Origin: an uncultured Mycoplasma sp.
Lineage (GTDB): Bacteria; Bacillota_I; Bacilli_A; RF39; UBA660
Length of the DNA stretch: 55,463 nucleotides
NCBI GenBank assembly: GCA_947642635.1
Contig: CANRTI010000007.1
Span: 1 to 55,463 of the forward strand
Reading direction: 5' to 3'
Both the position numbers and the translations under genes were made by a program. Of this stretch, positions 1 through 42,553 are shown in pieces. The notes below the pieces were generated by a model that did not search any database, had not been told where the DNA came from, and saw only the letters and a program-made list of their open reading frames with translations. The number at the start of each line of letters is the position of its first letter. Position 1 is the first letter of the stretch.

Positions 1-164
1 AGCCATTGATTAGACTCTCTTTTTTATTAAGTCCTTGACAAAGGGTTCATTTTAGAATTAAAAACTCTCAAATTTTTTCAAATGTTAAGTCTATTGCAGA
101 TGATGGTTTAATAGAATTAAAAACTGGTGAAGTAGCATCTTTAATTGAAGTTAAAGCAATAGAC

Positions 165-2402
165 TTGTCTTTAACTAGTAAGTCAGAAAAACAAAGTTTC
201 TTCTATGCTCTAAAAAGTCTTTACCAAATAAAAGGTCTTGTGCTAAAATGTTATAAATTAGATCAGAAGATTAATCTTAATAACAATAAAATTAATTTAG
301 AAGATTTAATCAATTATTTTGAAAGTAATGATAAAAAACATAAATTACTTGAAGAAAGTAAAAGACTAATTGAAGAACTAGAAGATAATCACTATACTAT
401 ATCTAGTGTTTATTATCTTGTAGTAATTGCTAAAGACTTAAATATATTAGAAAAACAACTTGATGAAATTGAAGATATTATTTCTAATATAACACCTAGA
501 ATCAATATGGAAGTTATTGATAATAGATTAGAAATATATAAGTTTTTGACTAATTTATATATGAATCAAAAATCACTTGATGATCTAATATGGAGTGATT
601 TACCATCTTTAATATCGCCCCTTAATTTACAAGAAAAAACTAATTCATTAAAACTCGATGATAAAGATATTCAAATGGTAACAATTAAAAATATTCCACC
701 ATTCGTAGATGAATTATTTTTTGAAGAAGTTTTTAATGTTCCAGATGTTATGGCTTGTATTGGTATTAAGGATGCTATTAGTCAAGAAGAGTTAATTCGT
801 TGGGTAAATTCACAATATCAATTTTTACTTAGTGATCGTAATACTACCAGAAAATTAAGTGATGCTACTGAACTTGATACTCAAAAAGAAAACTTTCAAC
901 AATTAATGTTAGAAATAAAAAATGGTGATGAAAAAATAAAAGAGGTATCTCTTACTCTTATTATTACTGGTACTAAAAAAGAAAGGGAAAATACTTTTAG
1001 AGAATTAAAAAGAATTGTAGATAGATACCAAATAAAACTTGATATTCCAAAATTAAGGCAAATGGAGTGTTGGCAAAACTTTGATATTACTACTACTTCT
1101 TTAAATGATTATTCTATCTTTTTACCTACTTTAACCTTAAGTGCAGGTTTTCCATTTACTAAAACGTATTTTAATGATAGTAAAGGTTACATGTTAGGTG
1201 TTGATTTACATACTTCACTACCTATATTTTTTGATCCATTTACTTTAAATAATCAAAGAACTTCCCATAACCTAGCCATAGTTTCATCTACTGGTGGTGG
1301 TAAAAGTTTTACTATGAAAAAAATGATTATAAATGAATTTGCTCGTGGTACTAAAATTTTTATATGGGATGCTGAAAATGAATATAAAAAATTAGTTGAA
1401 GCAAATGGTGGTGAATATATAGATCTCTACTCTAAAAAGGGTGGTATTATTAATCCTTTACAGATTAGATATATTCCTAGTGATGATGAAGATAAAGAAA
1501 CAAAGGAAACAGACTGTCCTTTAGCAAAACATTTAGGTTTTCTGGAGGCGTTCTTCAAGACTGCTTTTGAAAGTATAACAGAAAAAGAACTTGTCATGTT
1601 ACTAGCAGTAGTGGAGTCTTTATATAATACAAAAGGTATATTTAAAAATACTTCCATTAATACACTACAAAGTCTGAAACCTACTGACTACCCAATTTTT
1701 AGTGAATTATATGAGTATTTACCAGTTTATAAAAAAGAATTACAAAGTAATGAGAAAAAGAAATTAATCGATCAATTAGAAATACTTGTTTCAAGATTTT
1801 TAACTGGAACTGATTCCTTCCTATTCGATGGTCATACCAATATTGACTTATCAAATGATCTCATTGCTTTTAATTTGCAAGAATTATTATATAGTGGAAA
1901 TCAAAGACTGATTAATACCCAAGTTTTAAATCTACTAACATATTTGAATAATAGCATTGTTGCTAATAAAATTCAAAATGAAAAGTCTGATAAGAAAAAA
2001 CATATTAGTATTATAGTCGATGAGTTCCATTTATTTATAGATGAAAAAAATAATGAGGTATTAAAAAATTTTGGACAACTTGTTCGTAGAGTTCGTAAGT
2101 ATTCGACTAATTTAATTGTAAGTACCCAAAGTGTTAAAGACTTTGTAGGTAATGCCAGTGTTTTAAGACATGCTACTGCAATTTTTAATAATTGTCAGTA
2201 CACTATGATAGGTATGTTAAAAGAAGATGATCTACTTGCTTATCTAGAATTATTTAAAAATAACCCTTTAACTGATACCCAAAAAGCATTTTTACTATCT
2301 GCTAAACGAGGTGAATTTCTTTTAAATGTAGATAATAAAAATAGACTTAGAGTTTGGATTCGTGCGACTGAATTAGAAAGAACTATGATGGGTGAAAATT
2401 AA
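165..2402 (+). CDS. VirB4/TraE-family conjugation ATPase of ICE1 (5' end uncertain)
   Basis: This ATPase powers the type IV secretion channel at the membrane. A Walker A motif (SSTGGGKSF) lies near residue 375 and a Walker B motif (IIVDEFHLFID) near residue 615, as in VirB4/TraE proteins. The only conventional start in frame is the TTG at 165. However, the frame is open from position 39, and the residues encoded upstream (including DDGLIELKTGE) fit the conserved N-terminal beta-strands of the family. The true start is therefore upstream. No ATG, GTG or TTG is available between the stop at 36-38 and position 165, and removing one T from the run at 50-53 would join this frame to a neighbouring one. 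The stop overlaps the next start (TAATG), which implies translational coupling. Confidence 0.88.
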   Translation: MSLTSKSEKQSFFYALKSLYQIKGLVLKCYKLDQKINLNNNKINLEDLINYFESNDKKHKLLEESKRLIEELEDNHYTISSVYYLVVIAKDLNILEKQLDEIEDIISNITPRINMEVIDNRLEIYKFLTNLYMNQKSLDDLIWSDLPSLISPLNLQEKTNSLKLDDKDIQMVTIKNIPPFVDELFFEEVFNVPDVMACIGIKDAISQEELIRWVNSQYQFLLSDRNTTRKLSDATELDTQKENFQQLMLEIKNGDEKIKEVSLTLIITGTKKERENTFRELKRIVDRYQIKLDIPKLRQMECWQNFDITTTSLNDYSIFLPTLTLSAGFPFTKTYFNDSKGYMLGVDLHTSLPIFFDPFTLNNQRTSHNLAIVSSTGGGKSFTMKKMIINEFARGTKIFIWDAENEYKKLVEANGGEYIDLYSKKGGIINPLQIRYIPSDDEDKETKETDCPLAKHLGFLEAFFKTAFESITEKELVMLLAVVESLYNTKGIFKNTSINTLQSLKPTDYPIFSELYEYLPVYKKELQSNEKKKLIDQLEILVSRFLTGTDSFLFDGHTNIDLSNDLIAFNLQELLYSGNQRLINTQVLNLLTYLNNSIVANKIQNEKSDKKKHISIIVDEFHLFIDEKNNEVLKNFGQLVRRVRKYSTNLIVSTQSVKDFVGNASVLRHATAIFNNCQYTMIGMLKEDDLLAYLELFKNNPLTDTQKAFLLSAKRGEFLLNVDNKNRLRVWIRATELERTMMGEN

Positions 2403-3007
2403 TGAATAGTAAAAGTAAATTAAATCATTTGTCGAGTTCTATTTATGACTTTATATGTAATTATCGTGAATATAGTGATTGGTATTTTTATAATAATGAA
2501 ATACCAGACTTAGAAAGTCTAAAAAGTAAATTGGATGATGAAGATAAGGGTATAGATTTTATGAGTGATTTATCAGAAATGTTTCGTCATTTTGTTATGG
2601 AAAAAGATTTTACCAATACAGATGAAGAAGGATTTTTTGATACTCTATGTTCCATATTTAAAGAATATAATATTTATCTAAACTCTTATGAGAAAGATTA
2701 TAAAATTGATACATTAGCAAATGATTTAGTTAAATATGTAAAGGAATCAGATCCTTATGAATATAGAGATAACTATTCAAATGATGAAGATGCTTTTAAT
2801 TCCATACAAAAATGTTTATACACTGTTTCTGGAGTTGATGCTATTAAAGATCATCTAAATACTGATATAGAACATTATGCAACAGATAGTGATTTAACTA
2901 ATAATGACATCTTAGATTATTTGAAAAATGCTAGTGATTTATTAATCGGAGTAAACGAATATTCTAAAGAATTACAAAAGAAAAATAATAAGGAAATGGA
3001 TATGTAA
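2402..3007 (+). CDS. ICE1 hypothetical acidic protein
   Basis: I do not recognise this 201-aa protein. It is rich in Asp, Glu, Asn and Tyr, has no predicted membrane segment or signal peptide, and looks soluble and helical. Its start overlaps the virB4 stop, so it is probably made in step with VirB4. It precedes the M23 hydrolase gene by only three bases, which places it in the transfer operon. A cytoplasmic accessory role in the secretion channel is a guess from position only. Confidence 0.75.
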   Translation: MNSKSKLNHLSSSIYDFICNYREYSDWYFYNNEIPDLESLKSKLDDEDKGIDFMSDLSEMFRHFVMEKDFTNTDEEGFFDTLCSIFKEYNIYLNSYEKDYKIDTLANDLVKYVKESDPYEYRDNYSNDEDAFNSIQKCLYTVSGVDAIKDHLNTDIEHYATDSDLTNNDILDYLKNASDLLIGVNEYSKELQKKNNKEMDM

Positions 3008-3010
3008 ATT

Positions 3011-3943
3011 TTGAAAAAGAAAATACTATCTATTCTTTTAGGATATACTGGAGGATTAGTGGTAATTGCTATCATAGTTTTAATTCCAGTATTAATGATT
3101 ATGGATTTCTTTGGTGCTAATATTACAGATGGTTATATAGAAAATAATAGTCAGTATGCAGAACAATATACTAAAGTTGCTAATAAAAATATAAAAGCAA
3201 AAAATGGTTATGTTTCACTAGAAAGAATTTTATATTTTTATCTTGCAGATAATTCTTTAACCTTTGATGAAATATATACTGATAACTTAGATAAGGAATC
3301 AAAAAAATTACTTCCTATTAGTGATGTATGTACTATTCAAAAATATAAAGTTTTAGAAGTTTGTAAAAATGAAAATTTATCTTCTAGTGGGCAGATAAAT
3401 GTAGAACAGGCAAAACCTTTTGCACCACCAATAGAATTTTCTAATTCTACTATAACTAGTTTTTTTATGGAAGAAAGAGTTATTTATGGTGAGACAAATG
3501 TACATAAAGCATGGGATATTGCTAATTCTGAACAAACACCAGTTTATTCAACTTGTGATGGAAAAGTTGAAAGTATTTCTTTTCCGTATAGTGAAAATAA
3601 AATTGATACGAGTGATAAACAGGGTGGTAATAATATAAAAATTTCATGTGAAGTAAATGACTTAAAATATATCGTATTTTATGGTCATCTATTTCCAAAT
3701 AGTGCCAAAGTATCAGCTGGTGATACCGTGTCAAAAGGACAAATTATTGCTACTGTTGGTACTACTGGTTATTCAACTGGTAATCATTTACATTACCAAG
3801 TATCAAAGGATGATCAAGTTATAGATGGTATGAGTTTAGTAGACTTTAATTATGAATTAGAAAATTCAAAACCTATATATAATCCACCATCTCTATCAAA
3901 CGATAATAAATTTAATAATTTGACACCATCCTATAAGAATTAA
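3011..3943 (+). CDS. Membrane-anchored M23 metallopeptidase (VirB1-like wall hydrolase) of ICE1
   Basis: The protein has one N-terminal membrane segment (about residues 5-30) and then an extracellular domain. The C-terminal half is a LytM/M23 peptidase: the zinc-binding H-x-x-x-D is seen as HKAWD near residue 165, and the HLH motif near residue 259 lies within GYSTGNHLHYQV. Such enzymes open the peptidoglycan for the conjugation channel in Gram-positive elements. The start is TTG; an AAGGAAA sequence lies rather far upstream, so translation is probably coupled to the preceding gene. ICE2 has the equivalent gene in the same place, directly after virB4. Confidence 0.87.
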   Translation: MKKKILSILLGYTGGLVVIAIIVLIPVLMIMDFFGANITDGYIENNSQYAEQYTKVANKNIKAKNGYVSLERILYFYLADNSLTFDEIYTDNLDKESKKLLPISDVCTIQKYKVLEVCKNENLSSSGQINVEQAKPFAPPIEFSNSTITSFFMEERVIYGETNVHKAWDIANSEQTPVYSTCDGKVESISFPYSENKIDTSDKQGGNNIKISCEVNDLKYIVFYGHLFPNSAKVSAGDTVSKGQIIATVGTTGYSTGNHLHYQVSKDDQVIDGMSLVDFNYELENSKPIYNPPSLSNDNKFNNLTPSYKN

Positions 3944-3957
3944 TAAAAATAACAATT

Positions 3958-4173
3958 TAGGATGAAAAGCCAAATAAATAAAGCTCCTAAAAATAAATAA
4001 TAAAAAAGGTGTTAACCTTTATACCAACCTACAAAGTAGGATGAATTTTGCAAGTGCAAAATCAGTCTTACACAACACTAAACTCTTATAGAATAAGAAA
4101 AGTTTAGTATTGTTGTGTAAGTTTCTTATCCTGCTTTTTTATATACTACTATGTTTTAGAGCTTTTCATCCTA
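3958..4173. other. Candidate origin of transfer (oriT) of ICE1, nested hairpins
   Basis: This 250-base gene-free stretch lies between the M23 gene and the relaxosome genes. It is bounded by a perfect 13-bp inverted repeat (TAGGATGAAAAGC at 3958-3970 and its complement at 4161-4173). Inside are CCTAC-AAA-GTAGG, ATTTTGCA-AG-TGCAAAAT, and a long imperfect hairpin whose arms are ACACAACACTAAACT and the near-complement ending TTGTGTAAG (about 4067-4124). Stacked hairpins beside relaxase and RHH genes are typical of oriT. The nic site cannot be assigned by eye. Confidence 0.55.
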
Positions 4174-4191
4174 TCCAAATAAGGAGGACAA

Positions 4192-4356
4192 ATGAGAAGA
4201 TTTGATTTTTGGTTGCCTATTGATTTATTTAATAGGATTAAATTAATGGCTCAATTCTATGGAATACATATATCAAAAATGATGATTCAGCTTTTAGAAA
4301 TGGGCTATATAGATATGTTAAAAGGAGGTTATGATAATGAAGTTATCGATAAATAA
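4192..4356 (+). CDS. Small ribbon-helix-helix-like protein of ICE1 (54 aa)
   Basis: A strong ribosome-binding site (AAGGAGG at 4181-4187) precedes this ATG. The 54-aa product begins MRRFDFWLPIDLFNRIKLMA, a short beta-strand followed by two helices, as in CopG/Arc-type DNA-binding proteins. Its position next to the oriT candidate suggests a relaxosome or autoregulatory DNA-binding role. Its 3' end overlaps the next gene. It is too short for most gene callers. Confidence 0.65.
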   Translation: MRRFDFWLPIDLFNRIKLMAQFYGIHISKMMIQLLEMGYIDMLKGGYDNEVIDK

Positions 4357-4783
4357 ATTAATTGCAAATGATATAATAAATTATGGCATAGATCAAATAA
4401 TGGAAATGGAAGATGGTAATAGTGCCAATTATATTGTTTCACTTAATACATACTTAAATGATTTTGATGAATATACTAAAAAATATATTTTAGAGAATAT
4501 ATATAAAATAATTGAAGATATAAAGATGAGTGAGTGTGTACTTGACTTAGTTGTAGATAAAGATAAAAATAACATTGATCTTAATATGATTTTTTATTGG
4601 AAAAATTTACTCACAGAAGTAGATAAAAAAGTCGATGCTACTGCTAAGATTTTGGGTGTAGAAATGGATTTGAAAGATATTAAGAAAATGCCTGCTAATA
4701 TTTTAGATGATGATAAATTTAATGATGATTTAATAAACAGAATAAAATATTTTGACAACGAACATGAACAGGAGTTAAATTAA
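4337..4783 (+). CDS. ICE1 hypothetical protein
   Basis: I do not recognise this 148-aa acidic, helical protein. Two start codons are possible, 4331 and 4337. The AGGAGG at 4323-4328 has the normal 8-base spacing only to 4337, so I chose that start. The gene overlaps the upstream RHH gene by about 20 bases, and its stop touches the next start (TTAATGA arrangement). It belongs to the relaxosome gene group by position. Confidence 0.7.
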   Translation: MKLSINKLIANDIINYGIDQIMEMEDGNSANYIVSLNTYLNDFDEYTKKYILENIYKIIEDIKMSECVLDLVVDKDKNNIDLNMIFYWKNLLTEVDKKVDATAKILGVEMDLKDIKKMPANILDDDKFNDDLINRIKYFDNEHEQELN

Positions 4784-5184
4784 TGAAAGTTCGTTTATAT
4801 ACTGATAAAGAAATTAAAATATTAAAACAAAGTATTTTTGTTAGAAATGTAAAATATAAAAGAGAAATAGAGTATGATCCAATTTTTAAATTATGGACTA
4901 TCATGATGAGATATGATATGCCAGAACTATCTGCTAGAGAAATTTTTGCTCGTGGTGGTTTTGACATAAATATTCTTCATAAAAGATTACCTCAAAGAAG
5001 AATTAAGGACTGGGTAGATAATTATAAAAAATTTGGTATTAGATATTTCTTGCCAGAAAACAATTATTATCAAAGTATTACTTATGAAAAAGATAATACT
5101 ATTTATTATGATATTTTTAAAACGAAAATATTAGATTATGTTTTAAGAAGATTAAAGGAAATAGATTTTAATGACAATAGATAA
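4783..5184 (+). CDS. ICE1 hypothetical basic HTH-like protein
   Basis: The 133-aa product is basic and has a segment MPELSAREIFARGGFDINIL followed by RRIKDWVDNYKKFG. This resembles the helix-turn-helix core of small transposase-like or HTH-domain proteins common on Firmicute mobile elements. DNA binding is inferred, and the target is unknown. Start and stop overlap the neighbours on both sides, so the gene is co-translated with the relaxosome group. Confidence 0.7.
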   Translation: MKVRLYTDKEIKILKQSIFVRNVKYKREIEYDPIFKLWTIMMRYDMPELSAREIFARGGFDINILHKRLPQRRIKDWVDNYKKFGIRYFLPENNYYQSITYEKDNTIYYDIFKTKILDYVLRRLKEIDFNDNR

Positions 5185-5488
5185 GCATATTTATTTTACT
5201 AATGAAGAATATGCTCGTATCAAAGATTATGCTAGTAATAATAATTTATCTTTTTCTAAAGCAGTATGTAGTTTATGTGTCTATGCTTTAAATGGTAATG
5301 AAATTTTAGATAGAATTAATAAAATAGATAAAAGTATAGAATATATAATCAAAAAGCAACAAGTTCTACATTTACTTGAAGAACAAATATATTCTGATAT
5401 GGACTTTGAAAATGTCTCAGATCCTAAAAAAAGTAGACCTTTAAATGAATTTAATAAAAGGATTAGAAATAATTTTATAAATGACTAA
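5171..5488 (+). CDS. MobC-like relaxosome accessory protein of ICE1
   Basis: This 105-aa protein lies directly upstream of, and overlaps, the relaxase gene. It begins TIDKHIYFTNEEYARIKDYA, a ribbon-helix-helix pattern seen in MobC/MbeC-type proteins that bind oriT and help the relaxase nick. It overlaps the previous gene by 14 bases and the relaxase by 8, consistent with tight co-expression. The assignment rests on position plus the N-terminal pattern. Confidence 0.65.
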   Translation: MTIDKHIYFTNEEYARIKDYASNNNLSFSKAVCSLCVYALNGNEILDRINKIDKSIEYIIKKQQVLHLLEEQIYSDMDFENVSDPKKSRPLNEFNKRIRNNFIND

Positions 5489-6788
5489 AAGCCCTAAAGT
5501 GATTTTTAATTCTATCTTTACCTTTGCCCTTAATAACCCAGATAATAAGTATAGGAATCATAATAGATCTATTAAAAGAGTTAAAGATATGTACGACTAT
5601 TATACTAATGAAGAAAAACGAGCCATGTCTATGTATGATTATTATACTGGCAAACTTGCTAAAGAAAAAAATATGAATTTGGTTATTGAAAATGGAAAGT
5701 TTGCAAGTAAATTGGAAGTTGAAAGAAGAAAAAAGTTATCAGTAAAATATTTAGAAAATTCTAATTTGTGGCAAGGGGTACTATCATTTAATAATGATTA
5801 TATAAATGATAATATTGATATACATAAACTGGAGCAAGAACTTGCTACCAATATATTACCCAAATTCTTTAAAAAGTGTGGTTTTAAATATCCTAAAAAA
5901 ATGTTTTATCAATTATCACTTCATAGTGATACTGACAACTTACACTTTCATTTCTCGTTTATGGAAAAGCAACCTAATTATATTTATTCTAAAAATAAAG
6001 TTGGTTATAGAAGATTTGGCGAATTATCACAAGCTGAAATTGATTTCTTAAAAAATCAAGTTATCCATATTATTGAAAAAGAAAAAATTTATACCTCTTT
6101 ATTAAAAGAAACGAATAAAGATATAGAAGAATTAAAAAAATATTTTAACCCTAAAGAAAAGAATTATCTTCTAAGAAACAAAAAAGATTTACTTTTAGAA
6201 GAAAAAATATTAAGATTAGGTCAACTTCTTTATAATGAGAGAATAGGTAAAGATACTAAAGTTAAATATGGATCAATTAGGAATAAGGAAATAATTAATC
6301 TTACTAGAGAAATTAAAAGTTATATTTTTTCTAATTCAAATTCTGATTTTAAATTAGAATACACTAATTTTAAAGAATCGTTAGAAAATATTAATTCATA
6401 TTTCCATAAAATTAATGAAGATAATAATATTAAAAATATTAATATAGATACTTCATTAATTGATTCAAAAAATAAATATATAGATAATTATATTTATAAT
6501 GCTATTGTTAATTATGCAGATTATAACTATAGGAAAGAATCTAAAACTTTTAATAAAATTAAAGAAAATGACATTATACAAGAAATAATCTTAAAGTATT
6601 ATTTAAAAAACAAAAAGCAAAATAGAAAAGATATATTGAAGAATTACTTATCTAATTCTAACCCTAGACAAAGGTTTAAAAATAAATCAGCTATTGAAAA
6701 TGCTATCAAAGATATTAATGCTGAAATGGAAGAAGCTAAGAAAGAATTTAGCAAATTATTTCAAAAAGAAAATTATTATTCTAAATAG
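5481..6788 (+). CDS. MobL/MobP-type relaxase of ICE1
   Basis: The relaxase nicks oriT and stays bound to the transferred strand. The N-terminal 200 residues show the arrangement of MobL-type relaxases: an early YDYYT segment, LWQGVLSFNNDY, and the metal-binding motif HSDTDNLHFHF near residue 148. The C-terminal half is helical, Lys/Asn-rich and not recognisable. The length (435 aa) is normal for the group. The gene follows the MobC-like gene with an 8-base overlap. The relaxase of ICE2 has the same motif pattern but little other similarity. Confidence 0.85.
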   Translation: MTKSPKVIFNSIFTFALNNPDNKYRNHNRSIKRVKDMYDYYTNEEKRAMSMYDYYTGKLAKEKNMNLVIENGKFASKLEVERRKKLSVKYLENSNLWQGVLSFNNDYINDNIDIHKLEQELATNILPKFFKKCGFKYPKKMFYQLSLHSDTDNLHFHFSFMEKQPNYIYSKNKVGYRRFGELSQAEIDFLKNQVIHIIEKEKIYTSLLKETNKDIEELKKYFNPKEKNYLLRNKKDLLLEEKILRLGQLLYNERIGKDTKVKYGSIRNKEIINLTREIKSYIFSNSNSDFKLEYTNFKESLENINSYFHKINEDNNIKNINIDTSLIDSKNKYIDNYIYNAIVNYADYNYRKESKTFNKIKENDIIQEIILKYYLKNKKQNRKDILKNYLSNSNPRQRFKNKSAIENAIKDINAEMEEAKKEFSKLFQKENYYSK

Positions 6789-6804
6789 CTTTTAAAAAGG
6801 AGGA

Positions 6805-7068
6805 ATGTTTATAAATAAAATAGGAAATATATTAAAACAAGAAAGAATAAAGAGAAAATTATCTTTAAGAACACTATCAGAATTATCTGATATTTCTATT
6901 TCTACTTTAAGTAGACTAGAAAATAGTAAGATTAAAAATGTGAATGGTGTTTTTTTATATAGATTAAGTAAAATTTTAAAAGTTGATTATAAGTATTTAA
7001 CTAGACAAAGATGGGATATATCACCCACCTTTTTATATGAAAGGAAATGTAGCTATGGAGATAAATAA
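6805..7068 (+). CDS. XRE-family helix-turn-helix regulator of ICE1
   Basis: The 87-aa protein carries one XRE/Cro-type HTH at about residues 5-60 (ILKQERIKRKLSLRTLSELS, then STLSRLENSKI). AGGAGG lies only one base before the ATG, which is unusually tight. A start at a later near-cognate codon (ATA at 6811) cannot be excluded. The gene ends inside the methylase gene. It may control the methylase or the transfer genes. Confidence 0.8.
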   Translation: MFINKIGNILKQERIKRKLSLRTLSELSDISISTLSRLENSKIKNVNGVFLYRLSKILKVDYKYLTRQRWDISPTFLYERKCSYGDK

Positions 7069-7765
7069 AATATACAATGAAGATTGTCTTTTAGGATTAA
7101 AAAAGATACCAGATAATTCTATTGATTTAGTATTAATTGATCCACCTTATGATATATGTACTATTGGAAGTAAGAAAGGAACTAGTAAAATTGTTAAAGG
7201 TATTATGAAGTTAGAAAAAGAATTAATTAATAACAATTTAGTTAGCGGTTTTGATATTAAAATTCTAGATGAAATAGTAAGGGTTATGAAAGGTATTAAT
7301 ATTTATATTTGGTGTAATGCTAAACAAATACCTATGTATATTAAGTATTTTAATTTGCAACTTCAATGTAAGTTAGAAGTTGTTATCTGGGGTAAAACAA
7401 ATCCTATTCCACTTTATAATAATAAATATATGAATGATAAAGAATATTGTTTATATTTTAGAAAAAATGGCTATTGTAATCCACAAAACTATGAAGATGC
7501 TAAAAGTATATACATATCTCAAACAAATGTAAAAGATAAAAAATTATACGAACATCCAACTATTAAACCATTAGAACTTATTAGAAAACTTATTAGAAAT
7601 AGTTCTAAGGAAAATGATATAATTTTAGATTGTTTTTTAGGTAGTGGTACAACTGCAGTTGCTTGTGTTTTAGAAAATAGAAAATATATAGGGTTTGAAA
7701 TAAACAAAAAATACTTTGATATTGCTAATAAAAGAATATTAGAATCCATAAAGGATGGTAATTAA
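7055..7765 (+). CDS. Orphan DNA methyltransferase (beta-class N6-adenine/N4-cytosine type)
   Basis: The catalytic motif IV DPPYD lies near residue 29 and the SAM-binding motif I (DCFLGSGTTAVA) near residue 194. The order IV before I is that of beta-class amino-methyltransferases. I chose the ATG at 7055 because an AAGG lies at normal distance and the resulting MEINKIYNEDCL matches the usual N-terminus; the frame is also open from an ATG at 7037. No restriction endonuclease gene is adjacent, so it probably protects the element against host restriction or marks its DNA. It overlaps the XRE gene by 14 bases. Confidence 0.87.
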   Translation: MEINKIYNEDCLLGLKKIPDNSIDLVLIDPPYDICTIGSKKGTSKIVKGIMKLEKELINNNLVSGFDIKILDEIVRVMKGINIYIWCNAKQIPMYIKYFNLQLQCKLEVVIWGKTNPIPLYNNKYMNDKEYCLYFRKNGYCNPQNYEDAKSIYISQTNVKDKKLYEHPTIKPLELIRKLIRNSSKENDIILDCFLGSGTTAVACVLENRKYIGFEINKKYFDIANKRILESIKDGN

Positions 7766-7768
7766 TTA

Positions 7769-8623
7769 ATGGGATATCAAGAAAGTGTTATAAAAGTTAA
7801 AAAAACATATCAAAATGAATTAATAAAGCAAATTATAAATAGTGATCGTAATAAATATATTTTTTGTGATCCATATTTTATAGTAGAAGTTAAAAAAGAC
7901 ATAAATAGATATAATTTTGAAAAAGATGATAAATTAGTATATGTTTGTGGTGAAAGTGATGGGCAACGAAGTTTTGAAGACTTTATAAATAATTCCGATA
8001 ATCAGATTAAAATTGTTTCCACTATAGAAAATAAAATTTATCCAATAGAAGATTTAATGGATTTATCTTTATTTGGAGTTATTTATGAAATGGATGATGG
8101 GTATGGTGAAGATGAATATTTTAAAGTTACTGGAATAGATAAGTACATTGAAAATCAAAAAGAGAAAAATATAAATAAATATGATGAAGTAAAAAATAGA
8201 CATCAGAAAAGAGTTAATGATTTTCCACTAGGTTTTGCTTTTAGTAATGAGCAATTTAAAAATATGATGGAAAAATGGGGATTAACAGAAAAAGACACAG
8301 ATAAAATAGTTTCTATTGATGGTGGTGGTTTTCTAAGAAAGACAGATATTGAAAAATATAATAAAATGTGGACTGAAATTAGAAAAGAACATAAAGATTT
8401 AATAGAACAAGATAAAACAGGTAATGGTTATATTAAAGATATGTTTGTTAGTGAACTTGAAAATCACGAATATGGGTATACTCATGAATTAGATGATACT
8501 TTAGATGCTTTAGAATTAACTAGAGAACAAATTTCTAATAGTCCATCTTTAAGTCATGGATTAGAACTTGCTAGAAAAGAAATTTTAGATAAGGAAAAGG
8601 AACAAGATTATGACATTGAATAA
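7769..8623 (+). CDS. ICE1 hypothetical protein with conserved FAFSNEQF segment
   Basis: The function of this 284-aa protein is unknown. The middle part (about residues 150-215) contains FPLGFAFSNEQFKNMMEKWG and IDGGGFLRKTDIEKYNKMW. I associate this pattern with an uncharacterised family found on phages and conjugative elements of gut Firmicutes. The protein is acidic and soluble with no membrane segment. It starts four bases after the methylase stop and overlaps the next gene, so it is in the same operon. Confidence 0.75.
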   Translation: MGYQESVIKVKKTYQNELIKQIINSDRNKYIFCDPYFIVEVKKDINRYNFEKDDKLVYVCGESDGQRSFEDFINNSDNQIKIVSTIENKIYPIEDLMDLSLFGVIYEMDDGYGEDEYFKVTGIDKYIENQKEKNINKYDEVKNRHQKRVNDFPLGFAFSNEQFKNMMEKWGLTEKDTDKIVSIDGGGFLRKTDIEKYNKMWTEIRKEHKDLIEQDKTGNGYIKDMFVSELENHEYGYTHELDDTLDALELTREQISNSPSLSHGLELARKEILDKEKEQDYDIE

Positions 8624-8963
8624 AGCAGAATTATTAGAATTTAAAATTAGTAGTGATAATGAACTTCCATACACTAAAATTAATGATTTTATGGATTATG
8701 TTTATCAAAATGATTTATACGAATATACAGATGATATCTATGATGATAATGGTATTAGAGATATTATAAGACATGATATTGATAAATCTGGTTGGGAAAG
8801 AATTAAATATATGCTAGAAGATGTGGAATCTACTAATTGTGATTATTTAATAAAAGATGTTTATGGTAATTTTAAAAATATTACTAATATAGACATAAAT
8901 TCTATTATAAATAATATTGTCTATGACTTAGATAAAAAATTGGGTGATTCCTATGAAGTTTAA
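8610..8963 (+). CDS. ICE1 hypothetical acidic protein
   Basis: This 117-aa, Asp- and Tyr-rich protein is not recognised. It overlaps the upstream gene by 14 bases and the following 51-aa gene by 11 bases, so it sits in a continuous operon leading to virD4. Its acidity and small size would fit an anti-restriction or DNA-mimic role, but nothing specific supports that. Confidence 0.65.
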   Translation: MTLNKAELLEFKISSDNELPYTKINDFMDYVYQNDLYEYTDDIYDDNGIRDIIRHDIDKSGWERIKYMLEDVESTNCDYLIKDVYGNFKNITNIDINSIINNIVYDLDKKLGDSYEV

Positions 8964-9108
8964 AGAATTGATTCCAAAGTTTTTATGGTTTCATAAAAAA
9001 TTTTGTGGGCATAGATATGTTGTTATTGAAAATGAAAAAGTTATAAAGTATTTACTTATTTATTATAAGAAAATTTATGTATTAAATAAGAAGGACTATG
9101 TTTTATAA
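8953..9108 (+). CDS. ICE1 small basic protein (51 aa)
   Basis: This short open frame begins with ATG inside the end of the previous gene and runs to 9108. The product (starts MKFKELIPKFLWFHKKFCGH) is rich in Lys, Tyr and aromatic residues. No function is recognised. The overlap with the upstream gene and the lack of other coding capacity before virD4 support it being real. Confidence 0.5.
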   Translation: MKFKELIPKFLWFHKKFCGHRYVVIENEKVIKYLLIYYKKIYVLNKKDYVL

Positions 9109-9132
9109 CAATAATCTAGTGAGGGGCTTACA

Positions 9133-11136
9133 ATGAGTTTGCCCCTTATTATTTTACTGTTAGTTTTAATTGTTTTTATTATTTGTTTTATTTATATAGA
9201 GCCAATAATAGCAAAGCATAAAATTAAAAACAATAATGAGTATGGATCTGCAAGGTTTTCTACTGAATCAGAAATAAATAATAATTTTGTAAAAGAAAAA
9301 ATATCTAATATTCAAGATGTAGGTTTTCCAGTTTATTATGATAAAAATGTAAGTCATGTATGGTTTGATAAAGAAACACCCCATTATGTTTATCTGGGAT
9401 CAAGTGGCTCTGGTAAAAGTGTTACTTGTGTTATAAATATGGTGAGTTTTATTGCTAATGCAAAAAAGCCACGAAGTGTATTTGTTACTGATCCTAAGGG
9501 TGAAATATATAATACTACTTCTAAAATGTTACATAATAAAGGTTACAAAGTTTTAACAATAGATTTTAGACATCCAGAATTATCTAATCATATAAATATC
9601 TTAGAGCCGGTTATAAGTGAATATGAAGAATATATAAAATATGAAAATCTAGTTAATACTGCTAAAAATGAAAATGAAAAGTTAGAATATCAGAATAAAT
9701 CTATTTCTAGTTATGCTGAAACAAATAGATTAATTACTTCTTTAGCATCTATGATTACCTATGATAAGTCACAAGGTAAAGATCCATTCTGGAATAATAG
9801 TGCTAAAAACTTACTAGAGGGTTTAATTGGTTTCTTTTTAGAAGAATATAAAGATGGTAAAATAAATCGTGAGCAAATAACTATGACTTCCATTCGTAAG
9901 TTTCAAAATTCTACTATGGAAGAAAAAAATTCTAAAAAGTTTAAATTATATATTGAGCAAAAACCTTATGGAACTAAATCAAAAGATAGTTTGATTCCTA
10001 TTCTTTCATCTAGTGAAAATACTTACAAATCTATTACTAGTGTTTTTTCTGAAAAGATGGCTATATTCGATGATGTCAATGTTGCTAATGTTACTAGTAA
10101 GTCAGATTTTGATTTTGACATTTTAGGCAAAGAAAAGTCTGCTTTATTTGTAATAGTTCCAGATGAAGATAAAATTTATTATACTCTTGTTACCATTATA
10201 TTAGGACTTTTATATAAAGAATTAGTAAAACTTGCTAATGCTAATGATAGTAAGAAATGTCCTATTGAAATTGACTGGATTTGTGATGAATTTTCAAATT
10301 GTCCACCACTTGTAGAGCCAAGTATAGGATCAATAATATCGGTAGCTAGATCTCGTGGATTAAGATATCATTTATTTATTCAAAGTTTAAGTCAGTTAGA
10401 TAATGTTTATGGTAAAGAAGTAGCCCAGATTATACTTGATAACTCTGGACTTGCTTATCTTAAAACTAATACAATGGATACTGCTGAAGCAATTAGTAAG
10501 AGATTAGGTAAAAAGACAATAGAATCTAATTCTATAAGTCAGTCTATGAGTTTAACTAACTATAATGGTAATAAATCTACTTCTTTAATTGCTCGTGATC
10601 TTTTAACACCAGATGAAGTCAAAAATATTCATCACAAAACTATAATATTTCCAAACATAGGATATCCAATATATAGAGATACTATTATATATAAGAAACT
10701 ATCTTGTTACTCTAGTGGTGAACTTGAACGGAAAATAATACCACTTGTGGATTTAAGTAGTACATACTTTACTGTTGAAGATATTAAGACTAAATATGAT
10801 AGACTTTTTAGAAATAGAAATGATAGCTCTATATATAAGGAAGAATTATCAGAATTTAATAAAGTTGAGGAAGAAAAATTAAAGAATATAATTGAAATAG
10901 TACAAGATCAACTTAAAGATAAAATATCTTTATTTGAATTTAAAGAAAATAATAATAGAACTTATGCTAGTTTTGAATTATCTAAACCGCTAACTACAAA
11001 AGAATTAACTTTTATTAAAGGTAAAATAAATAAGGAAGTATTCCATTTGGAAATAAATAATTGTAATAGTACTAAATCTACTATTGAAATACACTTAAAA
11101 AATCCTTTAGAAAGGGATAACAAGGATAATGTCTAA
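9133..11136 (+). CDS. VirD4/TraG-type coupling protein of ICE1
   Basis: The type IV coupling protein brings the relaxase-DNA complex to the VirB4 channel. One or two N-terminal membrane segments (about residues 3-25) precede the ATPase domain. Walker A (GSSGSGKSV) is near residue 88 and the Walker B region (IDWICDEFSNCPPL) near residue 380. The C-terminal 120 residues after the ATPase core are an acidic extension. GAGGGG precedes the ATG. At 667 aa the size fits TraG-type proteins. Confidence 0.92.
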   Translation: MSLPLIILLLVLIVFIICFIYIEPIIAKHKIKNNNEYGSARFSTESEINNNFVKEKISNIQDVGFPVYYDKNVSHVWFDKETPHYVYLGSSGSGKSVTCVINMVSFIANAKKPRSVFVTDPKGEIYNTTSKMLHNKGYKVLTIDFRHPELSNHINILEPVISEYEEYIKYENLVNTAKNENEKLEYQNKSISSYAETNRLITSLASMITYDKSQGKDPFWNNSAKNLLEGLIGFFLEEYKDGKINREQITMTSIRKFQNSTMEEKNSKKFKLYIEQKPYGTKSKDSLIPILSSSENTYKSITSVFSEKMAIFDDVNVANVTSKSDFDFDILGKEKSALFVIVPDEDKIYYTLVTIILGLLYKELVKLANANDSKKCPIEIDWICDEFSNCPPLVEPSIGSIISVARSRGLRYHLFIQSLSQLDNVYGKEVAQIILDNSGLAYLKTNTMDTAEAISKRLGKKTIESNSISQSMSLTNYNGNKSTSLIARDLLTPDEVKNIHHKTIIFPNIGYPIYRDTIIYKKLSCYSSGELERKIIPLVDLSSTYFTVEDIKTKYDRLFRNRNDSSIYKEELSEFNKVEEEKLKNIIEIVQDQLKDKISLFEFKENNNRTYASFELSKPLTTKELTFIKGKINKEVFHLEINNCNSTKSTIEIHLKNPLERDNKDNV

Positions 11137-11200
11137 AATTAGATATTGTTCTTTTTTATATTAGTTTTTCATAAGATTTATGGAAAATGGAGGAAAATCT

Positions 11201-11413
11201 ATGTATGAAATAGAAGAATTTTATGCAGTAGATGGTGAAGATTTAAAGGATTTATTAAAAAGTTGTATATTCAATTATTATATAAAAAATAAAGATCAGA
11301 ATTCGGTTAAAGATGAGTTGCCAAAAAATAAAAAGCATCATATAATGGATTCGACTAACAAGGAAGAAATATTGTCAAAGAAAGGAGTAAAATATGTACA
11401 GACAGTACAATAA
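11201..11413 (+). CDS. Small protein upstream of the ICE1 recombinase
   Basis: Small genes in this position often encode recombination directionality factors or partners of the recombinase. I chose the ATG at 11201 because GGAGG (11189-11193) is 7 bases upstream; an ATG at 11180 has no ribosome-binding site. The 70-aa product starts MYEIEEFYAVDGEDLKDLL, is acidic at the N-terminus and Lys-rich at the C-terminus. It overlaps the recombinase start by 20 bases, so the two are translationally linked. A role as excision factor is an inference from position only. Confidence 0.6.
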   Translation: MYEIEEFYAVDGEDLKDLLKSCIFNYYIKNKDQNSVKDELPKNKKHHIMDSTNKEEILSKKGVKYVQTVQ

Positions 11414-12980
11414 TGACAATATTAATTACAAAATTGGTCTTTATATAAGATTATCTCGTGAAGACGGTGATGATTTAGAAAGTGAAAGTGTTACAAATCA
11501 ACGAAGTCTTTTAACTGGATTTCTCAAAGCAAATGGTTTAGTTGCAGTTGATGAATATGTTGATGATGGTTATTCTGGTGGAAATTTTAATAGGCCAGGA
11601 TTTCAAAGATTATTAAAAGATTTACAGGATAAAAGAATTAATATGGTTATGACAAAAGATTTATCAAGGCTTGGTCGTGATCATGTTATGACTGGTTATT
11701 ATGTAGAATCATTTTTTCCAGAAAATAATATAAGATATATAGCAGTAAATGATGATATAGACACTTTTTACGAAACTAGTGGTAGTGAAATGATGCCTTT
11801 TAAATTAAGTATGAACGATATGTATGCAAAAGATATTTCAAAGAAAGTACGATCTAATTTATTAGAAATGAAAAAACAAGGTAAATTTTGTGGAAGTGTT
11901 CCACCTTATGGTTATATGAGGCATCCAGATAATAAGCATCAATTAATTATAGATCCTAGAACTGCCCCAGTAGTAAAAAGAATATTTGATTTATATATCT
12001 CTGGTTATGGGAGTTGTGATATTGCAGAAATTTTAACTCGTGAAGAAATCCCAACACCTGTTATGTTAAAAAACAGCGAAAAAGCATTATTAAAATGTGA
12101 TCATCCATATATTTGGAAATGTTCATCAGTTAACAATATTTTAAAAAATAGATGTTATACCGGAGTTTTAATTCAACATACTTCGCAAAATATTAATTAT
12201 AAAATAAAAAAAAGAAGAAAAGTTCCAGAGGCTGACTGGTGTATTAAAGAAAATGCCCATGATCCTATTATTTCACAAGAAACTTTTGATATAGCACTAA
12301 GTATTAGGAATAGATTAAACAATTATAATCCAGATAGAAGAAATGTTGAATATGTTTTATCTGACTTAGTATATTGTAAAGACTGTGGTGCTAAAATGAG
12401 TATAAGTTATGACAAAAAGAGAGATCGCGTAACTATGAATTGTAACAGTTATAGAAAGTTTAGTAAATATAATATATGTTGTTCTCATTATATTAATTAT
12501 AATAAGTTAGAAAATACTATTTTTAACAAAATAAGTTTATTATCAAGCCAATATTTGGAAGATAAAGAAGAATTTGAGAGAATAATTAGAGAAAAGTATA
12601 TTGATCCAAGAACAGAATTGAACAATAAAATAGATACATTAGTTAAAGACATAGAAAAACTTAAATTAAAACAAGATTCATTGTATGATGATAAATTTAA
12701 TAATGTTATAAGTGCAGATACTTATCAAAGATTATTTAATCAAATAGAGAATGATATAAATATAGCCAATAAAAAGATTGATAAATATAAAACCGAGATT
12801 TTTTCTATTAAAGAAGATTCAGTATCATATGTAGAATATTTAACTATGATTGAAAATTTTTTAAATATGAAAAATCCTACAAAAGAAACAATGAATAAAT
12901 TAATAAAAAAAATATTTATTACTAAAGATAAAAAAGTGGAAATTCATTATAGAATTAAAAAAGGTGAAGTATTAGTTTAG
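11394..12980 (+). CDS. Large serine recombinase (TnpX-like integrase) of ICE1
   Basis: This enzyme integrates and excises the element. The resolvase domain has the catalytic serine at residue 21 (LYIRLSREDGDD) and the motif TKDLSRLGRDH near residue 90. It is followed by the recombinase domain (PYGYMRHPDN, then VKRIFDLYI), a zinc ribbon (YCKDCGAKM with later CNSYR and CCSH), and a C-terminal coiled coil. At 528 aa it is of normal length for TnpX/CcrB-like enzymes. It is the last gene of the element, about 50 bases from the junction with spoIVA, as expected for an attachment-site-proximal integrase. Confidence 0.93.
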   Translation: MYRQYNNDNINYKIGLYIRLSREDGDDLESESVTNQRSLLTGFLKANGLVAVDEYVDDGYSGGNFNRPGFQRLLKDLQDKRINMVMTKDLSRLGRDHVMTGYYVESFFPENNIRYIAVNDDIDTFYETSGSEMMPFKLSMNDMYAKDISKKVRSNLLEMKKQGKFCGSVPPYGYMRHPDNKHQLIIDPRTAPVVKRIFDLYISGYGSCDIAEILTREEIPTPVMLKNSEKALLKCDHPYIWKCSSVNNILKNRCYTGVLIQHTSQNINYKIKKRRKVPEADWCIKENAHDPIISQETFDIALSIRNRLNNYNPDRRNVEYVLSDLVYCKDCGAKMSISYDKKRDRVTMNCNSYRKFSKYNICCSHYINYNKLENTIFNKISLLSSQYLEDKEEFERIIREKYIDPRTELNNKIDTLVKDIEKLKLKQDSLYDDKFNNVISADTYQRLFNQIENDINIANKKIDKYKTEIFSIKEDSVSYVEYLTMIENFLNMKNPTKETMNKLIKKIFITKDKKVEIHYRIKKGEVLV

Positions 12981-13008
12981 TTGCTAAAATTAGCAACATA
13001 TATTTTTT
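12981..13008 (+). terminator. Hairpin terminator after ICE1 recombinase
   Basis: TTGCTAA-AA-TTAGCAA forms a perfect 7-bp stem directly after the recombinase stop. A run of six T follows a few bases later (13003-13008), so the terminator is probably modest in strength. It lies just inside the element end and would limit read-through into spoIVA. Confidence 0.5.
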
Positions 13009-13009
13009 A

Positions 13010-13045
13010 ACTATGGGGTATCACTTTTAAGGTTCACGGTGGTTC
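13010..13045. other. attR region of ICE1 in spoIVA
   Basis: The SpoIVA frame is open only from 13031 (a TAA at 13028-13030 lies in frame just before it). From about 13034 the encoded residues match SpoIVA. The crossover must therefore fall near 13028-13045, around GGTTCACGGTGG. The partner sequence at the left end is outside the window, so the exact core cannot be set. Confidence 0.6.
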
Positions 13046-14155
13046 CCCGATGCTGTTCCTTTTGTCGAAGCAGCTGAAATTGGAACTCAAAAAGTTATTA
13101 AAGATCATTCAACTATTGGTTTAGTTGTAACAAGCGATGGTTCTTTTGGTGAAATAAAGAGAGAAAATTATATTGAAGCTGAGGAAAAAATAGTTAGTGA
13201 ATTAAAAGAAATCGGAAAACCATTTATTATTATTTTAAATACTGTTCATCCAACAAATACGGAAACAGTAGAATTGTCAAGAAATTTAAGTGAAACATAT
13301 GATGTTCCAGTTATGCCTATTAATGTCGAAGCGATGAATGAAAAAGAAATAATGAATATTTTAAAAGAAGCGTTATATGAATTTCCAGTATTAGATATTT
13401 TAGTAAATATGCCAGAATGGGTTCATGTTTTACCAAATAATAATGAAATAAAAATGCATTATTTAGAAAAGATTAAAGAAAGTGTTATAAGTGTTAATAA
13501 AGTAAAAGATGTTGATTATATATTAAGTCATTTTGAAAGTAGTGAATATATTTCTAAATCATATATAAGTGAGCTTGATGCTGCTAGTGGAACTATTACA
13601 ATTAATTTAGAAAGTCCTAATGAACTTTATAATGCTACTTTAAAATCTCTTATGGGAGATAGTGCTACTACAAAAGCTGGTCTTTTAAAAATATTTGCTA
13701 CTTATAAAGAAAGTAAAGAAGAGACAGAACTTATTAAAAATGCTTTAAAACAAGCAAAAACCACAGGATATGGAATTGTATATCCAACCCTTAAAGATAT
13801 GAAATTAGAAACGCCAGAGATTGTTAAACAAGGTAGTAGATATGGAGTTAAATTAAAAGCTTTAGCATCTAGTATTCATTTACTTAAAGTAGATGTAGAG
13901 TCAACTTTTGAACCAATTATTGGAAGTGAAGTTCAAAGTAAAGAATTAATTAATTATTTAATGAAAGATTATGAAACTGATCCAAGTAGTATATGGAAAA
14001 GTGAGATTTTTGGTCGAAGTTTAGAAGTTATTGTACAAGAAGGAATTCAAGCAAAACTTAATATGATGCCTGATACGACAAGATTTAAATTATCTAATAC
14101 TGTGACAAAAATTGTTAACAAAGGAAGTAATAATTTAATAGCTATAGTACTTTAA
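13031..14155 (+). pseudogene. spoIVA: SpoIVA, 3' part (interrupted by ICE1)
   Basis: SpoIVA is the ATPase that polymerises at the forespore surface and forms the base of the spore coat. The frame encodes 374 residues that follow Bacillus subtilis SpoIVA from about residue 117 to the C-terminus, including EAAEIGTQKVIKDHST, EALYEFPVLDI, KQGSRYGVKLKALASSIH and the C-terminal GSNNLIAIVL. The N-terminal part with the Walker A site is missing at the ICE1 junction. Internal starts (TTG at 13274, for example) lack a ribosome-binding site. No stop or frameshift interrupts the remainder, so the gene would be whole if the element excised precisely. Downstream hup matches the Bacillus order. Confidence 0.93.
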
Positions 14156-14176
14156 AAGAGGAAATGCCTCTTTTTT
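14154..14176 (+). terminator. Terminator of spoIVA
   Basis: AAAAGAGG and CCTCTTTT form an 8-bp stem with a 5-base loop overlapping the stop codon, followed by more T residues. This is a typical intrinsic terminator. Confidence 0.8.
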
Positions 14177-14229
14177 GTTATTAAAAGCTAAAAATTTGTA
14201 ATTAAATAGTAAATTATTGCGGTTTTTAG

Positions 14230-14258
14230 TTGATTTTAAAGGATATTTTTGATAATCT
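14230..14258 (+). promoter_or_regulatory. Promoter of hup
   Basis: TTGATT, a 17-base spacer and TAATCT resemble a vegetative sigma-A promoter, 57 bases before the HU start codon. The leader contains a small GGAC/GTCC hairpin before the strong AGGAGGT site. Confidence 0.5.
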
Positions 14259-14314
14259 TATTATGTGAGGACAGTAAGGTCCCAATTAAGATAATGTTAT
14301 GAGGAGGTAAGAAC

Positions 14315-14587
14315 ATGTCTAAAACAGAATTAGTAGAATTTATTGCTGATGCTACTGGATTAACAAAAGCTGATGCTACTCGTGCCTTAGATGCTACTAT
14401 CGAAGGTATTTCTACAGGATTAAAAAAGGAAGGAAAAGTTACTTTAGTTGGTTTTGGTACTTTTAGTGCTAAAAAAAGAGCTGCTAGAGAAGGTATTAAT
14501 CCATTAACTAAAGAACCATTAAAAATTCCTGCTAAGACAGTTGCTTCATTTAAAGCTGGAAGCAAACTAAAAGATGCTTTAAACTAA
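14315..14587 (+). CDS. hup: HU-family DNA-binding protein
   Basis: HU compacts and bends DNA as a dimer. The 90-aa product has the usual length and features: MSKTELVEFIADATGLTKAD at the N-terminus, FGTFSAKKRAAREGINP for the DNA-binding arm, and the C-terminal VASFKAGSKLKDALN. AGGAGG precedes the ATG. In Bacillus the HU gene (hbs) also follows spoIVA, which supports the spoIVA assignment. It is host-encoded, lies between the two ICEs, and has its own promoter and terminator. Confidence 0.96.
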   Translation: MSKTELVEFIADATGLTKADATRALDATIEGISTGLKKEGKVTLVGFGTFSAKKRAAREGINPLTKEPLKIPAKTVASFKAGSKLKDALN

Positions 14588-14607
14588 TAAGTAAAATTTA
14601 GTAAATT

Positions 14608-14631
14608 AAGTTAGCTATTGCTAACTTTTTT
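14608..14631 (+). terminator. Terminator of hup
   Basis: AAGTTAGC-TATT-GCTAACTT is a perfect 8-bp stem with a 4-base loop, followed by T residues. It is a strong intrinsic terminator. Confidence 0.88.
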
Positions 14632-14675
14632 GTTTTTTAAAGATATTTTAGAGTATAATAAAAATGAGGGATTGT

Positions 14676-15719
14676 ATGAAGAAGAGAAAGCTTATTATCA
14701 TAATAATTAGTTTATTGTTTATTTTGGTACCATTTTTTATAAACGTTTATAGTTTTTATAAAATAATAGTTCTTTTAATTGGAATTATTGGTTTAGATAT
14801 TGGAATATCGTTGGGACTTAAAAAAAGAATATTTTTTCTTATTTATTTTCCACTAGTTTTGTTAGTTTTTATTTATAGTGTTGATTATATTAAAACTTAT
14901 ACCTTAAAAATAAGTCCAATATTTGTTTGGGAAAATAAAATTAATAAAGATGTATCAATTTATAATAGTCTTTTTTACCGAGTTTTTAAATGTGAAAATA
15001 ATTATGTTTTCGATAATGATTATCAAAAATCTTTTGCTTGTGATACGAAGTTATTAGCAGAAGTGGATATTAATAAAATATTAAATGAACCGGATGTTTC
15101 TTTTAAAGATTATAAAAATGATTTTATTAAGATTACAGGAAAAATTAGTAAAATTAGTGGTGCTAGTAGTATTGAAATGAAAGAATATACTGTTGGTGAG
15201 GGAACAAATAGTTTAAATGGTTATGTAAAATTTAATGAAACTAGTAAGTTAATTGTTAATTTAAAAGGAATTAATATTTCACAGTATAAAATTTATGATT
15301 ATATAACAGTTGTAGGGCGTTTAAATAGTTTTAATATAGTAGAACATGAATTAACATTGACAGATACAGTAATAGAAGAAAATAATTTATATGATAATTT
15401 TGATTTACAAGTTATTTTAAATAATAAATGTAGTGAAGAAATAGTGGAATATACTGATAATTTTTATACAAGATGTATTCAAAATGTTTTTGTTGATTAT
15501 AAAATTGATAAATATGAATTATCATATGCTTTAAAAGATAAAAAAATAATATTTGATGATTTGATTGAAAAAGCTATTAAAAAAGATTATGAAGGAAAAG
15601 TTTTATATGAATTAGAAAAATTTGATATTTTGGTATGTAGTATTGATAAGAATGTTTTATTAAGTAAAGATGAACAGTGGGATGTTACTGTTTGTGATAA
15701 AGAGATATTAGAAAACTGA
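14676..15719 (+). CDS. Host membrane protein with C-terminal extracellular/OB-like region
   Basis: The first 75 residues form two or three hydrophobic membrane segments. The remaining 270 residues are soluble. About residues 130-225 (KITGKISKISG, TVVGRLNSFNI) look like a beta-barrel related to OB-fold tRNA_anti-like domains, but this is weak. Several cysteines in the outer part may form disulfides. I chose the ATG at 14676 because GAGGGA lies just upstream; an ATG at 14664 overlaps that site. No specific function is recognised. It ends with TGA inside a terminator hairpin. Confidence 0.75.
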   Translation: MKKRKLIIIIISLLFILVPFFINVYSFYKIIVLLIGIIGLDIGISLGLKKRIFFLIYFPLVLLVFIYSVDYIKTYTLKISPIFVWENKINKDVSIYNSLFYRVFKCENNYVFDNDYQKSFACDTKLLAEVDINKILNEPDVSFKDYKNDFIKITGKISKISGASSIEMKEYTVGEGTNSLNGYVKFNETSKLIVNLKGINISQYKIYDYITVVGRLNSFNIVEHELTLTDTVIEENNLYDNFDLQVILNNKCSEEIVEYTDNFYTRCIQNVFVDYKIDKYELSYALKDKKIIFDDLIEKAIKKDYEGKVLYELEKFDILVCSIDKNVLLSKDEQWDVTVCDKEILEN

Positions 15720-16016: not shown

Positions 16017-16208
16017 ATGAATCCATCAGGATACATTTTAGATTTTACAATACCTCAAGGTCCAACTGGCCCAACTGGTCCAGCAAGTACAGTTGAAGGA
16101 CCTACAGGTCCACAAGGAGATATAGGTCCAACAGGTCCTCAAGGCTTGCAAGGTATTCAGGGTGTAACAGGCCCTACTGCACGATTGGTTAATTCTTCTA
16201 ATAAATAA
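16017..16208 (+). pseudogene. Collagen-like spore-surface protein, 5' part (interrupted by ICE2)
   Basis: AAAGGAG precedes the ATG. The product begins [19 protein letters not shown], the same leader as the BclA-like gene at 44765, and continues with GPT/GPQ collagen repeats. After residue 53 the frame enters ICE2 DNA and ends with a short foreign tail ARLVNSSNK. Joining it at the shared core (16166-16174 with 44633-44641) to the downstream fragment gives one uninterrupted frame of about 89 residues. The truncated form may still be translated, as it keeps its start and a stop. Confidence 0.85.
16166..16199. other. attL of ICE2: core plus left terminal inverted repeat
   Basis: AACAGGCCC (16166-16174) is repeated at the right end. 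The 22 bases 16178-16199 match the reverse complement of 44612-44633 with 3 mismatches, both reading TGC(A/T)CGATTG(G/T)TT(A/T)ATTCTTCT. Together they define the left attachment site with the half-site of attP. Confidence 0.85.
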
Positions 16209-42507: not shown

Positions 42508-42553
42508 TTTTATGAGCTTGAAATTACGATTAAAAATAAGGAGTTGTATTTTT

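Follow-up and report, generated by a model that had tools for sequence, protein, structure and literature searches.

A conjugative element within the sporulation gene spoIVA, with predicted skin-like excision

Results

Conjugation genes lie between the two halves of spoIVA

The window, which is the whole stretch of DNA analysed (55,463 nucleotides), is the entire contig C7 of a genome (G000) that comprises 45 contigs and 1.31 Mb and is 94.5% complete. The features that concern us lie on C7 and on a second contig of the same genome, C19 (window coordinates unless C19 is named).

1..13039, + strand: right-hand ~13 kb of the element, from Pfam annotation and a sister contig with which both C19 and C7 are syntenic
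C19:10762-23799: left-hand ~13 kb of the element, separated from C7 by a short stretch missing from the assembly, in or near VirB4
165..2402, + strand: VirB4-type ATPase of the conjugation system (P-loop_TraG, 5.9e-19)
3011..3943, + strand: M23 peptidase, likely the cell-wall hydrolase of the transfer apparatus (Peptidase_M23, 6.2e-20)
5481..6788, + strand: MobL-type relaxase (MobL, 3.5e-08, above its cut-off)
7037..7765, + strand: DNA methyltransferase (N6_N4_Mtase, 8.7e-34)
9133..11136, + strand: type IV coupling protein (T4SS-DNA_transf, 9.7e-60)
11148..11178, + strand: sigma-E-type promoter candidate, GTTC (11148-11151), 18 bases, CATAAGATT (11170-11178)
11201..11413, + strand: 70-aa ORF, candidate directionality factor or regulator, overlapping the recombinase start
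11394..12980, + strand: large serine recombinase, 528 aa (Resolvase, Recombinase and Zn_ribbon_recom domains)
13017..13042, + strand: attR, GGTATCACTTTTAAGGTTCACGG plus the TGG core (13040-13042), from att comparison across elements and the sister breakpoint
13040..14155, + strand: 3' part of spoIVA from codon 122 onward, without its own start codon (TIGR02836; SpoIVA ATPase, middle and C domains)
14315..14587, + strand: gene for an HU-type DNA-binding protein, which normally lies downstream and follows spoIVA in the sister genome G212 too

The SpoIVA frame at 13034-14155 matched TIGR02836 positions 120-492 (458-459 bits in the profile search), began 54 bases after the end of the recombinase gene, and lacked the first ~121 residues, Walker A among them. 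The initial annotation had placed the recombinase about 50 bases before a start-less SpoIVA frame missing about 117 N-terminal residues including Walker A. It had also proposed that precise excision could repair the gene, which would call for a 5' part with a matching core to the left and no second intact copy; the sequence bore out both expectations. We found the 5' part on a different contig, at C19:10396-10761; the sole other spoIVA match in the genome is this one (C19:10396-10791, TIGR02836 positions 1-130, E 6e-50), and the profile search of the 94.5%-complete genome found no second spoIVA.

Both halves contain the triplet TGG (C19:10759-10761 and window 13040-13042), and joining them there gave an open SpoIVA frame of ~490 residues that reads ...NPRMVKTPW|FPDAVPFVEAAEIG... 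across the junction, so that the insertion codon is codon 122 (TGG, Trp). In G212, a genome of the same genus, spoIVA is intact and uninterrupted on one contig with the breakpoint at TGG: C19:10365-10761 and window 13040-15570 align to one contiguous stretch and overlap by exactly 3 bases (TGG). This empty site fixes the crossover core as TGG and makes C19 and C7 chromosomal neighbours, which rules out a chimera. The idea of repair by precise excision thus stands as a prediction from the open joined frame and the empty sister site. An alternative, that faulty assembly or the merging of two organisms into a chimera produced the split, has in its favor that the genome is a 45-contig draft with the halves on separate contigs that share no sequence at the element side; we give it almost no weight, because the frame is restored perfectly on joining, both contigs are syntenic with one sister contig, and the junctions recur across numerous independent assemblies, in several of which a single contig spans both halves.

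The C19 sequence from the junction to the contig end (13.0 kb) and C7:1-13042 together amount to ~26 kb plus the gap. Since the C19 end and the C7 start have no direct overlap, we argue contiguity from G212. The gap should be small, because a short ORF placed like PrgI lies just before the end of C19 and the start of C7 falls within VirB4, and the order of these two genes is the same in a second conjugative element of the window. The element encodes Cro/C1-type regulators, a sigma-region-4 protein, a SpaA-type adhesin, a sortase, SSB, a T4SS pilin, VirB4, the M23 peptidase, the MobL relaxase, the DNA methyltransferase, the coupling protein, the 70-aa ORF and the recombinase. Relaxase, coupling protein, VirB4-type ATPase and integrase all lie between the att sites, which is the gene set of an integrative conjugative element, as the initial annotation had suspected of the intervening DNA; a Pfam scan of the 19 element ORFs detected no phage structural or packaging genes, with conjugation genes there instead. 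On C19, attL reads TGG|GAAGTTATCCCAAAAGTGATACC, and the outer arms of attL and attR are inverted. As in a skin-like element, the insert lies inside a sporulation-specific gene (TIGR02836 in both halves), its precise removal restores the frame through a short core that is empty in a sister genome, and it encodes a site-specific recombinase with matching attL and attR.

Beside attL, C19 also encodes a 328-aa protein (L007 7069-8055) with a four-cysteine motif at its end and no Pfam or PHROGs match; it was also present in G052, G046, G171, G181 and G159, although the small element of G159 has a shortened form.

A second conjugative element lies in the same window

From ~15.6 to ~45.3 kb the window had no match in the G212 contig, and most of this region is a second conjugative element (~16.17-44.63 kb; 16167-44646) with VirB4, a coupling protein, a SpaA adhesin, a sortase, a C5 methylase and a separate serine recombinase (42512-44602). 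The gene it apparently splits is collagen-like, with a BclA C-terminal-domain gene as its neighbour: ACAGGCCC(T/A)ACTG is present at both ends, and the collagen-like parts, with an ATG at 16017, are in frame across this repeat. BclA-type proteins are spore-surface proteins, so each of the two elements in G000 may lie in a spore gene of its own.

The recombinase belongs to a spoIVA-specific clade

The catalytic serine of the recombinase is intact (in YIRLSRED). In a survey of full-length recombinases in family genomes with the window recombinase as reference, all 10 others of at least 68% identity directly precede the 3' half of spoIVA, and those next in similarity reach at most 44%; a 72% copy in G008 runs off the contig end. 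Among GTDB species genomes we found 30 loci with a recombinase at 58-79% identity, and SpoIVA was encoded directly downstream in 26/26 of those with continuing contigs, versus 0/50 loci with more distant recombinases. We conclude that this recombinase clade is spoIVA-specific. Between genera the recombinase diverges far less than spoIVA does, and its DNA is identical in G052 and G089, which belong to two genera.

Homologues of the ~70-aa ORF lie 5' of every clade recombinase for which the upstream region was read. The 70-aa protein had no match in Pfam or PHROGs, and its AlphaFold model was poor (pLDDT 62, one helix at residues 15-35). The closest solved chain to the recombinase is the TnpX N-terminal domain. 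TnpX excises without a helper and is not known to be tied to sporulation; the small protein could therefore be a regulator instead of a directionality factor.

A candidate sigma-E-type promoter precedes the small ORF

Intact spoIVA upstream regions in the family carry a two-box motif, approximately TGCATAT, 12 or 13 bases, CATATAGTT, as expected given that spoIVA is a sigma-E gene in B. subtilis. The initial annotation had suggested a sigma-E-like promoter before the recombinase, and we located a candidate sigma-E-type –10 box 5' of the recombinase operon. The box CATANNWTT stands at the right distance 5' of the small ORF in 22/22 elements, compared to 10/556 control ORFs with a ribosome-binding site and 23/46 spoIVA upstream regions, although these instances are related by descent and the counts overstate their independence. 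Four more diverged loci (L146, L165, L168 and L169) retain the small ORF and a CATA-type box. The –35 box of the candidate is weak and the full two-box score only moderate; GTTC at 17-18 bases also precedes some spoIVA genes. The coupling-protein gene ends just upstream, and we infer from this layout that read-through could serve transfer while the internal promoter could serve sporulation.

Insertion in spoIVA recurs in the family, at two sites

We surveyed 243 family genomes, of which 212 had spoIVA and 31 did not, and re-read those with two matches or a partial match. The same TGG codon is broken in ~17 of the 212 spoIVA-bearing genomes, a count that includes G171 (5' half only) and G141 (both forms). 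In four more (G081, G173, G185 and G192) spoIVA is broken at residue ~405 (SIH|M, shared CATA), where the inserted elements encode a large serine recombinase of another lineage, again preceded by a small ORF (for example L085, G173:C24, 7234-14927); the G081 recombinase has an in-frame stop. The two sites together account for split genes in ~10% of the spoIVA-bearing genomes sampled in the family. The two spoIVA matches of G100 proved to come from a single gene covered by two overlapping contigs and do not mark an insertion, and G009, with two overlapping, non-identical stretches, was left out of the count. G181 has an intact spoIVA on one contig and, on another (L133, G181:C129, ~1050-1180), a 5' fragment of residues ~96-122 joined to an attL-like end, which may be a remnant, a second copy or another strain.

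Reduced elements retain the recombinase module

Four reduced elements, each with both spoIVA junctions on one contig, measured 3.6 kb (G238/L143), 3.5 kb (L142), 3.3 kb (L155) and 5.2 kb (G159), and between the junctions of these four we detected no homologues of the conjugation genes of the window element. All of them retain attL and attR and, between these, the small ORF and the recombinase. Those of G159 and G238 also carry an AAA_14/DUF4143 ATPase, and that of G159 a 67-residue remnant of the 328-aa gene. The recombinase of the reduced elements is under purifying selection (for example, G159-G238 dN 0.035, dS 0.24). As a separate observation, the sigK match of G159 ends at residue 131, at the contig end (L252, G159:C45), for which either a break in the contig or a split of sigK could account.

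Split spoIVA genes are maintained in genomes with mother-cell sigma factors

All 18 joined spoIVA genes tested were open (489-497 codons). Comparison of split with same-genus intact spoIVA gave dN 0.02-0.12 and dS 0.74-1.34, indicating purifying selection, and split lineages were not accelerated (129 versus 112 unique changes, p ~0.3 by normal approximation). Factors of SigK/SigE type were present in 20/20 split genomes, compared to 5/20 genomes in which spoIVA was not found (one-sided hypergeometric p ~4e-7).

These data bear on the proposal that the insertion marks loss of sporulation, with spoIVA serving as a landing site that the host no longer uses. Related lineages have repeatedly lost the ability to sporulate (PMC10868615), 31 of the 243 family genomes lack spoIVA, and a whole-genome search of G000 gave no match for SASP (PF00269) or for SpoIIID (TIGR02844), the latter found in 12/20 split genomes. 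Lacking recognizable SASP and SpoIIID, G000 is not certain to sporulate, or sporulation in its lineage may differ from that of Bacillus; RF39, probably the order to which this uncultured member of the class Bacilli belongs, is predicted to form spores with altered regulation (PMC10868615), and in C. sporogenes spore formation is said to require SpoIVA (PMC11076785). We nevertheless consider loss of sporulation very improbable as an explanation, because the split genes are open and under strong purifying selection, SigE- and SigK-type factors are kept in all 20 split genomes, and G000 itself encodes SigE-, SigK- and SigG-type factors. An asporogenous host, the other outcome that the initial annotation had allowed, is thus the less likely branch, since the mother-cell sigma factors are kept.

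Possible traces of excision and the alternative of an ordinary conjugative element

No assembled attP was present in 386 family genomes. Eleven viral-contig matches to the attP pattern were unrelated sequences, and the viral contigs included no assembled circle. In G002 and G191, TGG is the exact end point of both spoIVA contigs. For G141, one contig runs uninterrupted across the site and another starts exactly at TGG, overlapping it by 141 bases; 141 is a common assembler k-mer length. A graph branch at TGG is suggestive of a mixture of interrupted and joined copies, and a mixture of strains would look alike.

Because elements are present or absent within genera and recombinases are identical in two genera, their spread must be recent, and intact halves alone could reflect young insertions. 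The element could accordingly be an ordinary site-specific conjugative element for which spoIVA is merely the attachment site, excising for transfer only and not in development, with a host that makes no complete spores while it is integrated and with intact halves that mark recent, reversible insertions. The full conjugation system fits this account, as do the differences between same-genus genomes, the identical recombinase DNA in two genera and the lack of an assembled excised form. We regard it as unlikely, because reduced elements without detectable conjugation genes keep the recombinase, small ORF and att sites, a sigma-E-type box precedes the operon, sigma-E and sigma-K are kept in split genomes, and decay was seen in 0/18 joined genes. 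We favor instead, with a probability of about 0.75, the reading that the spoIVA element is a skin-like but conjugative element that is tolerated through its removal during sporulation.

Discussion

We propose that, after transfer, the serine recombinase would join attP to attB inside spoIVA, a reaction whose site and products can be read from the DNA. In growing cells spoIVA would not be needed and the element would stay integrated. Following asymmetric division, sigma-E in the mother cell would transcribe the ~70-aa ORF and the recombinase from the CATA-type promoter motif, in step with spoIVA. The recombinase, probably directed by the ~70-aa protein, would then recombine attL with attR, releasing a circle and restoring at TGG the frame that we find open when the halves are joined. 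By analogy with the skin model, the mother cell would die while the forespore chromosome would retain the element, which would be inherited through the spore. In some lineages the conjugation genes appear to have been lost while the attachment sites, promoter, small ORF and recombinase persist. Of this scheme, the sequences establish the site and its core, the symmetry of the att sites, the restored frame, the clade specificity of the recombinase, the purifying selection and the promoter-like motif; we infer the helper role of the small protein, excision in the mother cell, retention in the spore line and sigma-E transcription.

The spoIVA element probably works like the skin elements in sigK of B. 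subtilis and C. difficile, in which a mother-cell sporulation gene is split, a large serine recombinase lies near one end, precise excision restores the frame (as predicted for spoIVA) and a small partner protein is involved. In C. difficile skin-Cd these are the recombinase CD1231 and the 72-aa directionality factor CD1234, under sigma-E (PMC5025042). Unlike skin, the target is spoIVA and not sigK, the insert is conjugative or a reduced derivative and not prophage-like, the small ORF and recombinase share one operon, and excision is a prediction. Like SP-beta in spsM (SprA/SprB; PMC4191935, PMC6957869), a still-mobile element would double as a developmental insert, and the att-recombinase-small protein module is separable from its cargo; however, SP-beta is a phage whereas the spoIVA insert is conjugative, and spsM is a polysaccharide gene whereas SpoIVA is a coat-assembly ATPase. 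The elements gin in gerE of B. cereus (GirC/GirX; PMC5595907), vfbin in spoVFB and yin in yabG (PMC10747680) likewise lie in sporulation genes that serine recombinases repair, and gin shows that non-phage elements can repair such genes (PMC5595907). Each of these three is reported from one or a few strains and none is conjugative, whereas spoIVA insertion spans many genera and two sites of one gene. The conjugative transposons of the Tn4451 TnpX type share conjugative or mobilizable cargo and a related recombinase N-terminal domain, on which the relatedness is based.

The genes for which interruption and repair have been reported, or which are candidates for it, are sigK, spsM, spoVFB, spoVR, gerE, kamA and yabG (PMC5025042, PMC4191935, PMC6957869, PMC5595907, PMC10747680). 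In the literature searched we found no description of an interrupted spoIVA or of a natural conjugative insert repaired in sporulation; a mention of spoIVA in a C. tetani paper concerned a CRISPR spacer, not an interruption. With this finding, spoIVA would join the few genes believed to be cut and then mended as cells sporulate.

In the species studied, spoIVA is needed for spore assembly. We think it likely, if slightly less so than skin-like removal itself, that spoIVA is a recurrent developmental attachment site in this family of uncultured gut Bacilli: a codon-specific recombinase and small-protein module, carried on conjugative elements and switched on by sigma-E in the mother cell, would repair the gene while the spore line keeps the element; the element would have been stripped to a cassette of ~3 kb in several species, and an unrelated recombinase lineage would act likewise at the second site. 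What is known of sporulation in this lineage comes only from genomes. Not single strains but many species share the arrangement, with intermediates from a full mobile element to a minimal excision cassette, and these intermediates and this recurrence would make the transition from parasite to developmental switch directly open to study.
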